This document shows, one piece after another, positions 2,033 to 5,584 of a stretch of 6,591 nucleotides of DNA. Position numbers and translations under genes: made by a program. The stretch's first letter is position 1, and each line of letters opens with the position of its first letter. Under the pieces are notes generated by a model. It was not told the DNA's origin. It saw only the letters and a list, made by a program, of their open reading frames with translations, and did no database searches. The stretch spans positions 1-6,591 of the forward strand of contig CAMLOC010000213.1 of assembly GCA_946481465.1 (NCBI GenBank). The letters run 5' to 3'. Origin of the DNA: an uncultured Shinella sp. GTDB taxonomy: Bacteria > Pseudomonadota > Alphaproteobacteria > Rhizobiales > Rhizobiaceae.

Positions 2033-2072
2033 AATATCCTCCGCCCCCTGTTGATGAACCGGGAGAGCATGG

Positions 2073-2101
2073 AGCTAAGAACGGCAGGGGTCCGGAGGCA
2101 A
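2073..2101 (-). promoter_or_regulatory. Candidate sigma-70-type promoter for the DUF299-maf-aroE operon
   Basis: Reading the minus strand, TTGCCT (2101-2096) is followed after 17 bases by TTAGCT (2078-2073). This would give a leader of about 35 bases before the GTG at 2032. The -35 element is fair and the -10 element poor. It overlaps a weak DnaA-like site at 2101-2109, so DnaA could affect it. Pattern match only. Confidence 0.28.
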
Positions 2102-2117
2102 GGGGATAACCGGCATT

Positions 2118-2126
2118 TTGTCCACA
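2118..2126 (+). promoter_or_regulatory. DnaA box, one mismatch (TTGTCCACA)
   Basis: Differs from the consensus TTATCCACA only at position 3. It lies 34 bases before the perfect box and in the opposite orientation to it. Part of the putative oriC. Confidence 0.65.
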
Positions 2127-2160
2127 ATCGGCGGGAGATCGCAAAGCGATTCACCGCGCA

Positions 2161-2169
2161 TGTGGATAA
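2161..2169 (-). promoter_or_regulatory. DnaA box, perfect consensus (TTATCCACA on minus strand)
   Basis: The plus strand reads TGTGGATAA, the exact reverse complement of the consensus DnaA box. A GANTC site (GACTC, 2170-2174) follows directly, so DnaA binding and adenine methylation by a CcrM-type enzyme could influence each other here. Strongest single motif supporting the origin call. Confidence 0.8.
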
Positions 2170-2207
2170 GACTCATGACATGGCAAAGTGTCGCGTTTCT
2201 TCACAGG

Positions 2208-2216
2208 TCATCCACA
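2208..2216 (+). promoter_or_regulatory. DnaA box, one mismatch (TCATCCACA)
   Basis: Differs from TTATCCACA only at position 2. A weaker site, TTCTTCACA (2197-2205), precedes it exactly 11 bases upstream in the same orientation; both are followed by GG. The two sites would face the same side of the helix. Confidence 0.6.
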
Positions 2217-2239
2217 GGAAGGCTCTTTGCCGGTCGCCA

Positions 2240-2269
2240 GGAATCGCCTTGATTCAAAAAGGCGATTCC
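2240..2269. repeat. Perfect 11-bp inverted repeat with 8-base loop inside putative oriC
   Basis: The left arm GGAATCGCCTT (2240-2250) and right arm AAGGCGATTCC (2259-2269) are exact reverse complements, separated by GATTCAAA. Each arm holds one GANTC site and the loop holds a third (2241-2245, 2251-2255, 2264-2268). No convincing T-run follows on either strand (GGTTTT on the plus side only), so it is a poor intrinsic terminator and more likely a site for a dimeric protein or a structure that extrudes on melting. Function not known to me. Confidence 0.75.
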
Positions 2270-2355
2270 GGTTTTCCGCAATCTACGCGAAAAATCTGCC
2301 GGCACATGGCGTCTTTTCCGGCCTGTCGGCGGCGGGACCAGATCCCTGTGGAGAG

Positions 2356-2422
2356 GATTTAATCCTTGATAGTCACCGACTCTAAGAAATAGAAACCTTT
2401 TCAAAGAGATTATTTCATGATT
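2356..2422. other. AT-rich stretch, candidate DNA unwinding element of oriC
   Basis: Base composition falls sharply against the GC-rich surroundings; the core 2381-2422 has 10 G/C out of 42. It lies beside the DnaA boxes and ends just before the hemE Shine-Dalgarno sequence. Such a segment next to DnaA boxes is typical of the site where the origin first melts. It contains the only TTAA (2359-2362) of the intergenic region. Confidence 0.55.
2366..2395 (+). promoter_or_regulatory. Candidate hemE promoter within the AT-rich part of oriC
   Basis: TTGATA (2366-2371, five of six to TTGACA) is followed after 18 bases by TAGAAA (2390-2395, four of six to TATAAT). Transcription would start near 2402, giving a short leader before the GTG at 2437. 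AT-rich DNA easily yields chance matches, so this is weak; in Caulobacter a hemE promoter within the origin is known. Confidence 0.3.
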
Positions 2423-2436
2423 GGGAGAACCCCGCG

Positions 2437-3471
2437 GTGTCTGCGAAAAGCCGGAAGATCGTCGAAGTCCTGAACGGGAAAACGGTCTCCCCCCCTCCCC
2501 TCTGGCTGATGCGCCAGGCCGGACGTTACCTGCCGGAGTACCGGCAGACGCGTGCGGCGGCGGGAAGTTTCCTCGATCTCTGTTATTCGCCGGAACTGGC
2601 GACGGAAGTGACACTCCAGCCGATCCGCCGCTACGGCTTCGACGCGGCGATCCTGTTTTCCGATATTCTCGTCATTCCCGATGCCCTGAAGCGCAATGTC
2701 CGCTTCGAGGAGGGCCATGGGCCGCGCCTCGATCCGATCGACGCCGACGGCATCCTTGCCCTGAAGGGGAATGGGGTCGCAGAGCACCTCAAGCCGGTCA
2801 TAGAGGCCGTCGGCCGCATCCGGGGTGTCCTGCCCGGGGAAACGGCGCTGCTCGGCTTCTGCGGCGCGCCCTGGACCGTCGCCACCTACATGATCGCCGG
2901 CCATGGAACGCCCGACCAGGCCCCTGCGCGCCTTTTCGCCTACCGGGAGCCGCGCGCCTTCTCGCACCTCCTCGATCTTCTCGCCGACCTTTCGGCCGAT
3001 TATCTCGTCGCACAGATCGATGCCGGTGCCGATGCGGTGCAGATCTTCGATTCCTGGGCCGGCGTGCTCGGCGAGCGCGAATTTGCCGATTTTGCCGTCC
3101 GTCCGGTGCGCCGGATCATCGCCTCGGTGAAAGCCCGCCGCCCGCAGGCGAAGGTCATCGCCTTCGCCAAGGGCGCGGGCCTGCTATTGAAAACCTACCG
3201 GCAGCAGACCGGCGCCGATGCGATCGGCCTCGATTGGTCCGTGCCGCTCTCCTTTGCGGCCGAGCTGCAGAAGGAGGGTCCCGTTCAGGGCAATCTCGAT
3301 CCGATGCGGGTCGTTGCCGGCGGCGCAGCACTCGACGACGGCATCGACGCCATCCTGCAGGCGCTCGGCAATGGACCGCTGATCTTCAATCTCGGCCACG
3401 GCATCACGCCGCAGGCCGATCCGGACACCGTCGCGCGGCTCGTGGCGCGCGTGCGCGGAGAGGCGCGGTGA
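2437..3471 (+). CDS. hemE: Uroporphyrinogen decarboxylase
   Basis: Removes the four acetate carboxyl groups of uroporphyrinogen III to give coproporphyrinogen III, in the cytoplasmic tetrapyrrole pathway; no cofactor is needed. The 344 residues match the family. Visible: the first signature [12 protein letters not shown] at residues 25-36, holding the substrate-carboxylate arginines; [11 protein letters not shown] at 68-78, with Asp76 as the expected catalytic aspartate; the second signature [13 protein letters not shown] at 140-152, with the conserved Tyr151; and a C-terminal FNLGHGI with the conserved histidine. The start is GTG, with GGGAG (2423-2427) 9 bases upstream; the next residues (RKIVEVLNG) are the normal rhizobial N-terminus. 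It begins directly beside the AT-rich part of the putative origin, reading away from it, and its stop codon overlaps the start of hemJ (GTGA). It would be among the first genes duplicated in each replication round. Confidence 0.97.
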
Positions 3472-5458: not shown

Positions 5459-5485
5459 GCGGCACGCGCCGCCGAGCCGAACACC

Positions 5486-5519
5486 ATGGTCCCGTCGCAA
5501 GGCGGGGCCATTTTCGTTT
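5486..5519 (+). terminator. Intrinsic (Rho-independent) terminator of rho
   Basis: An 11-bp stem (5486-5496 with 5501-5511, two G-U pairs in RNA) closed by a GCAA tetraloop of the stable GNRA type, followed by the T-rich run TTTTCGTTT (5511-5519). It begins 28 bases after the rho stop codon and ends 65 bases before mnmE. Few transcripts should pass from rho into mnmE. Confidence 0.88.
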
Positions 5520-5584
5520 GAGACGAACGGAATCGATTCTTCTCCGAAACGGATTGATCGATTCGCACCCGGAATAACGAGGCC

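Follow-up and report, generated by a model that had tools for sequence, protein, structure and literature searches.

Introduction

The chromosomal origin of Sinorhizobium meliloti is said, after the 2006 work of Sibley, MacLellan and Finan, to lie beside hemE and to depend on DnaA boxes. It is the closest characterised case for the locus described here. Elsewhere, the gene pair hemE/COG1806 flanks the origins of both Caulobacter and Rickettsia (PMC1914354).

The window analysed here, a stretch of 6,591 nucleotides from an uncultured Shinella sp., holds a gap of this kind between hemE and the COG1806 gene ppsR (Table 1). An earlier note on the sequence had proposed a chromosomal origin in this gap, between hemE and the DUF299 gene, and the proposal is supported by the flanking genes, the DnaA boxes, an AT-rich strip, and the skew and parS sites of relatives. 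Judged from sequence, the gap is almost certainly oriC, the DnaA-dependent origin from which the main chromosome of a Shinella-like bacterium is copied. Such an origin is to be expected here and is an ordinary example of an already known type. What the analysis yields is a testable map of such an origin, consisting of a fixed anchor box, box slots displaced by 9-11 bp from one lineage to another, a strip beside hemE that hardly varies and bears a CcrM site, and parS-like sites at fixed positions.

Table 1 Features of the candidate origin and its surroundings (positions in the window)
Feature	Position	Strand	Remarks
oriC candidate, ppsR-hemE gap	2033-2436		404 bp; divergent ppsR/hemE kept in 71/80 fetched relatives
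ppsR (DUF299/COG1806, Kinase-PPPase)	1211-2032	minus	left boundary; GTG start; PF03618, E 4e-90
hemE (uroporphyrinogen decarboxylase)	2437-3471	plus	right boundary; GTG start; PF01208, E 1e-108
parS-like site TGTTTCACGTGAATCA	577-592	plus	near aroE start; 1 mismatch; shuffle mean 0.01
Weak DnaA box TCATCAACA	2049-2057	minus	several relatives read TTATCAACA (1 mismatch)
DnaA box TTGTCCACA, anchor box	2118-2126	plus	1 mismatch
DnaA box TTATCCACA	2161-2169	minus	perfect
DnaA box TCATCCACA	2208-2216	plus	1 mismatch
IHF-like site TATCAAGGATTAA	2359-2371	minus	1 mismatch to the IHF consensus
Conserved strip AC.GANTCT.AGAA..AGAA, proposed core of DNA-unwinding element	2375-2394	plus	most conserved part of the gap
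GACTC, CcrM site within the conserved strip	2378-2382		GANTC there in 67/71 gaps
AT-richest 40 bp of the window, proposed opening place	2383-2422		78% A+T
Five other GANTC sites	2148, 2170, 2241, 2251, 2264		total in the window's gap, 6

The gap and its relatives

Relatives were chosen by likeness of HemE. Of 80 loci fetched, 71 carry divergent ppsR and hemE, while the nine with no ppsR match beside hemE were excluded from the counts. The 71 gaps referred to throughout are those of 70 relatives plus the window, a limit of 560 bp having excluded Mesorhizobium sp. STM 4661 (L044), whose 754-bp gap carries two strip-like stretches separated by 17 bp. Given this choice, and the close kinship of many of the relatives, the 71 gaps are not independent cases. 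Gap length is 391-406 bp in 59 of them. The nearest HemE relatives, at 89-91% identity, are all Shinella: S. kummerowiae, Shinella sp. H4-D48 and S. pollutisoli.

A few of the fetched loci merit separate mention. For instance, four from Aurantimonas/Aureimonas (L040, L041, L054 and L069) have no ppsR match, and a GACTC..AGAAT strip still lies upstream of hemE; among the four, a DnaA box with at most one mismatch occurs within 700 bp before hemE only in L041 and L069, and in L041 a box-like TGATCCACC abuts the strip. Two further loci, L058 and L061, have neither a DnaA box (at most one mismatch) nor GANTC in the 700 bp upstream of hemE, and here hemE may have moved away from the origin. Finally, a contig titled Bacillus subtilis SK6B4 (L039) carries a Rhizobiales-type ppsR-hemE origin, with a HemE 67% identical to that of the window, and is probably a mislabelled or contaminated assembly.

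Within the window, Pfam matches identify aroE (partial), maf and ppsR on the minus strand to the left of the gap, and hemE, a UPF0093 gene (hemJ), rho and mnmE (partial) on the plus strand to its right. That all genes read away from the gap, as the earlier note had it, is true of every recognised gene (three minus on the left, four plus on the right). The gap has a G+C content of 52.7%, versus 64.5% in the remainder of the window (A+T 47.3% versus 35.5%). The flanks, the box cluster and the AT-rich strip, together with their retention among relatives, are seen directly in the sequences. The parts previously listed for the gap stood as far as the boxes and the AT-rich segment are concerned, the window's AT-richest 40 bp beginning at 2383; the list had overlooked the parS-like site at 577-592 and the strip on the hemE side. 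An Rfam search returned no match at curated thresholds. In Shinella H4-D48 the sole DnaA-family match lies about 245 kb from the gap, and the origin of that genome would therefore not be adjacent to dnaA.

A fixed anchor box and shifting slots

One perfect and two single-mismatch DnaA boxes had been claimed for the gap, and all three were found exactly at 2118, 2161 and 2208. The weaker boxes claimed alongside them are also present, as matches in the gap or at its edge that begin at 2025, 2049, 2101, 2197, 2272 and 2347. The window holds 15 box matches with at most two mismatches versus a shuffle mean of 6.12, and a count of 15 was reached in none of 200 shuffles. Across the 71 gaps, boxes with at most one mismatch reach a density of 6.68 per kb versus 0.14 per kb in the flanks—a 48-fold difference—with three gaps holding no such box. 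For comparison, samples of the Shinella H4-D48 chromosome that overlap slightly and total about 940 kb contain 69 boxes at the same threshold, or 0.073 per kb; within these samples, three boxes per 400 bp occur only at the gap, and two boxes at two other places.

With a few strays, the boxes of the 71 gaps sort into paired slots; the two members of a pair stand 9-11 bp apart, roughly the length of one helical turn. The anchor is the most regular, a plus-strand box beginning at gap offset 83-86 in 64 of the 71 gaps. The slot of the 2161 box (minus, offset 124-128) is filled in 19/71 gaps and its alternative at 136-138, about 10 bp further on, in nine; the slot of the 2208 box (plus, offset 171-176) is filled 27 times in the 71 gaps, and the alternative at 162-164, about 11 bp nearer, 10 times. 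A minus box with at most one mismatch also sits at offset 16 in 12/71 gaps, the paired slots in this case being 16-17 or 25-27. As to conservation by column, the 95% level is reached by five of nine columns in the anchor box, by none of nine in either the 2161 or the 2208 box, and by four of the ten columns of 2048-2057 at the weak box. Helical phasing of all boxes was considered and rejected, the test being incoherent (best value 0.756 for plus boxes at a period of 10.75, and 0.611 for minus boxes at 10.0).

It had also been suggested that the layout of boxes may be specific to this lineage. This is refuted by the recurrence of all three slots in 10 of the 70 relatives: three Shinella, R. esperanzae, a Sinorhizobium, Brucella pituitosa, two Ochrobactrum, the mistitled L039 contig and an Aurantimonadaceae MAG.

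A conserved strip beside hemE

By column conservation, the best-kept part of the gap is the AT-rich strip, not the DnaA boxes. Twelve of its 20 columns (2375-2394) are conserved at 95% or above, versus 11 of 384 elsewhere in the gap, five of which belong to the anchor box. The adenines at 2385, 2388, 2391 and 2394 are found in 71, 70, 71 and 71 of the 71 rows, respectively. The strip lies 43-62 bp ahead of the hemE start codon, with some 160 bp between it and the last good box, and the AT-richest 40-mer begins at most 90 bp from hemE in 56/71 gaps.

The Rhizobiaceae form of the strip, GANTCTWAGAAATAGAA, was sought in 151 genomes of the family; 29 of them carry it as a single copy, and none as two; many of the other 122 may carry the GAATCAGAA form seen in Mesorhizobium. 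Eight of the 29 loci show the order ppsR-strip-hemE when read in one orientation, and in the other 21 the strip is adjoined by hemE without exception (21/21), with ppsR beyond in 19/21. When up to two mismatches are allowed, one extra place appears elsewhere in H4-D48, as it does in R. leguminosarum. Beyond the Rhizobiales, we drew on 115 genomes of the class, of which 87 had a HemE match, and took loci from the best 30 of the 87, one of these being a Shinella. In the 29 non-Shinella loci (11 with ppsR at the gap) the strip profile scored at most 0.7, where the chance level, taken as the best score in 800 kb of Shinella, is 8.5.

The IHF-like site at 2359-2371 is retained in closer relatives only. 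By raw counts, minus-strand IHF-like sites in the 71 gaps concentrate around offsets 190-209 and 320. At 2240-2269 the window has a perfect 11-bp hairpin, GGAATCGCCTT-GATTCAAA-AAGGCGATTCC, which holds three GANTC sites. A conserved hairpin was rejected as a candidate element: the longest perfect stems of 31 relatives measure 4-9 bp and lie mostly elsewhere. Single-strand folding beats shuffles (z -3.9; 0/100), a signal to which we give no weight because this hairpin contributes to it and relatives are without it.

The proximity of the strip to the hemE start codon raises the prospect that, within a genuine oriC, it serves as a promoter or regulator site for hemE and not as an unwinding element. 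A CTTGAT at 2365-2370 does resemble a -35 element in Rhizobiaceae, and transcription of hemE is described as important for Caulobacter replication (PMC8959179). Yet CTTGAT is absent from Mesorhizobium, Brucella and others, whereas AGAA..AGAA persists, and the strip runs straight into the window's AT-richest 40 bp. A search of 1950-2550 with the E. coli consensus alone also gave no sigma-70-like promoter. We regard a purely promoter or regulator role as unlikely, although worth keeping in view, and prefer to see the strip as the putative core of the unwinding element; a hemE promoter and an unwinding element may also overlap there.

How the origin would open

At the 13-mers of E. coli, DnaA holds the T-rich strand. 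In this origin, DnaA would fill the boxes of the ppsR-side half (2049-2216), and a bend, possibly via IHF, would carry the resulting complex to the strip on the hemE side. The helix would come apart at about 2378-2422, with DnaA keeping hold of the bottom strand, which is T-rich there, as in E. coli. Relative to the plus-strand boxes this T-rich bottom strand gives the same polarity as E. coli oriC. Forks would then travel outwards in either direction, in the same sense as transcription of the genes alongside, and parS sites such as 577-592 would be bound by ParB. As to the place and polarity of opening (about 2378-2422, bottom strand), we lean towards this proposal with modest confidence.

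Alternatively, the strip of this oriC might be a Bacillus-type basal unwinding system, in which a DnaA box is followed by a short spacer and DnaA-trios, the A-centred triplets lying on the strand opposite the box (PMC8287927; PMC8235120). From 2384, at least four consecutive N-A-N triplets are found in 70/71 gaps, versus 0.6% of all gap positions, and the other strand of the strip, TTT CTA TTT CTT, fits the trio form 5'-YTD-3' (PMC8235120). However, this polarity calls for a box no more than 16 bp away towards hemE (PMC8287927), and over the 25 bp on that side the best box has 3-5 mismatches in 71/71 gaps (mean 4.38, shuffled 4.05). A degenerate box close by on the ppsR side has at most two mismatches in 12/71 gaps, where 6.8% is expected, but would share its strand with the N-A-N triplets, contrary to the trio rule; in H. 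pylori, reversal of trio polarity abolished opening (PMC8235120). Where such a box ends at 2377, it has four mismatches in the window and at most two in 7/71 gaps. A trio system at the strip is accordingly very unlikely in our estimation, and we retain delivery of DnaA from the ppsR-side boxes as the favoured proposal.

Strand asymmetry and parS sites

Skew and the genome-wide clustering of parS were examined in complete relatives, Shinella H4-D48 and R. leguminosarum, which stand in for the window's own replicon. The H4-D48 chromosome has 3,477,580 bp, with the gap at 31,981-32,386. Over 40 even samples of it, cumulative GC skew has its maximum in the 1.74-Mb sample and its lowest value in the first. 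In a joined stretch of 570 kb around the gap, of which 5,581 bases are unknown, the GC minimum fell at 35.4 kb, 3 kb from the gap, on a cumulative curve that is nearly flat over about 60 kb. In this relative the GC-skew minimum agrees with the gap as to region, and less so as to sharpness. T-A skew is lowest at 19.7 kb and the sum of GC and T-A skew at 0.5 kb, and the switch of the strand-biased octamer GGGNAGGG comes at 86.8 kb; strand measures other than GC skew are 12-54 kb off the gap. For R. leguminosarum, sampled at 20 places and with its gap at about 4.509 Mb, the octamer switch falls between the 4.165 and 4.41 Mb samples, at least some 80 kb before the gap is reached and resting on two counts there. 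GC skew is below zero along much of either arm, and the agreement with the gap as origin is only rough. In essence, skew locates the region to tens of kb and alone would not single out the gap.

The parS-like site at 577-592 is one mismatch away from the ParB-site (parS) consensus. All seven parS-like places (at most two mismatches) in the whole genome of H4-D48 lie within -49 to +19 kb of the gap, and all five in R. leguminosarum, at 4.462-4.511 Mb, within 47 kb of it; 680 kb of control stretches contained none. A parS-like site is present in 53 of 65 loci of at least 9 kb. Among the 30 closest loci that reach this length (L001-L029 without L015, plus L031 and L080), 28 have one placed 1.46-1.51 kb to the left of the gap.

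The view that the boxes are instead transcription-factor sites for DnaA at a divergent promoter, with the origin elsewhere, draws on a known second activity of DnaA (PMC8203912) and would suit a divergent intergenic region, but is opposed by the skew, the parS cluster, a box cluster unique in the sequence sampled, and the occurrence of known origins between this same gene pair, and we consider it extremely improbable.

A CcrM site at a fixed place

The variable base of the GANTC in the strip is C in 64 rows, G in six and T in one, and a second CcrM site lies 8 bp further in 34/71 gaps, for example in Mesorhizobium and Brucella. The density of such sites is another matter. The gaps hold 10.34 GANTC per kb, the flanks 2.33 per kb and 69 hemJ-rho gaps 4.80 per kb; the 39 rho-mnmE gaps that could be delimited (window counterpart, 5459-5584) hold 12.68 per kb, above the origin gaps. 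Because these control gaps are richer, GANTC density is not special, and enrichment was dropped as a mark of the origin; only the fixed position counts. GANTC sites within an origin are not new, several in the Caulobacter origin having already been published (PMC3973325). For a fixed CcrM site in the strip, our search found no description in the literature that it covered, most subscription papers lying outside it.

It is conceivable, if rather unlikely, that origins of Rhizobiales open at an element of 20 bp that joins a CcrM site to the unwinding strip, and that full or hemi-methylation of this site sets the time of opening by DnaA. Such an element would be, with equal reserve, an independently arisen parallel, based on CcrM, to the 13-mers with GATC sites in E. 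coli. Timing of this kind, if true, would help to explain how initiation is restrained at origins without CtrA sites. A strong role for CcrM is disfavoured by the normal DNA content of Caulobacter cells that lack CcrM, in a study whose authors consider the enzyme not needed for initiation control (PMC3973325). In Agrobacterium, the CcrM effects reported concern ori2 (PMC11514494).

Comparison with known origins

Among unwinding mechanisms, the basal system of B. subtilis and H. pylori shares with the strip a run of at least four triplets with a fixed central A; unlike that system, the strip has a polarity opposite to the boxes present, and no box at the required place. The E. coli unwinding element is like the strip in being AT-rich, in carrying adenine-methylation sites and in having its A-rich strand on the strand of box R1. 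The methylation sites of the strip are GANTC, however, and it stands about 160 bp from the last good box, whereas the E. coli 13-mers carry GATC and lie close to a box. When the Rhizobiales strip profile was run over 20 kb around E. coli oriC, the 13-mer region was among three tied best matches (17.2), on the R1 strand, and the score of this 75-base element was equalled by 11 of 1000 shuffles. The likeness is weak and suggestive only, having been sought after it was noticed.

Among whole origins, Cori of Caulobacter crescentus resembles the window's gap in its hemE/COG1806 flanks, DnaA boxes and AT-rich region, and has an IHF site (PMC1914354), to which the IHF-like site at 2359-2371 may correspond. 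Its boxes are of the TGATCCACA type (PMC4285127), unlike those of the window, and it carries five CtrA sites (PMC1914354), whereas the window's gap has none of the form TTAA-N7-TTAA. Across the 71 gaps there are five such full sites in total, spread over four gaps with one or two each; CtrA gating of the Caulobacter type was rejected on this scarcity and on the absence of full sites from the window's gap. Brucella CtrA is likewise reported as not binding the origin (PMC2877005). The S. meliloti origin has no CtrA sites and is unbound by CtrA (PMC4433202), in keeping with a gap in the window that is likewise without a full CtrA site. The fetched locus nearest to it, that of Sinorhizobium sp. 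6-70 (L025), has the same three box slots as the window.
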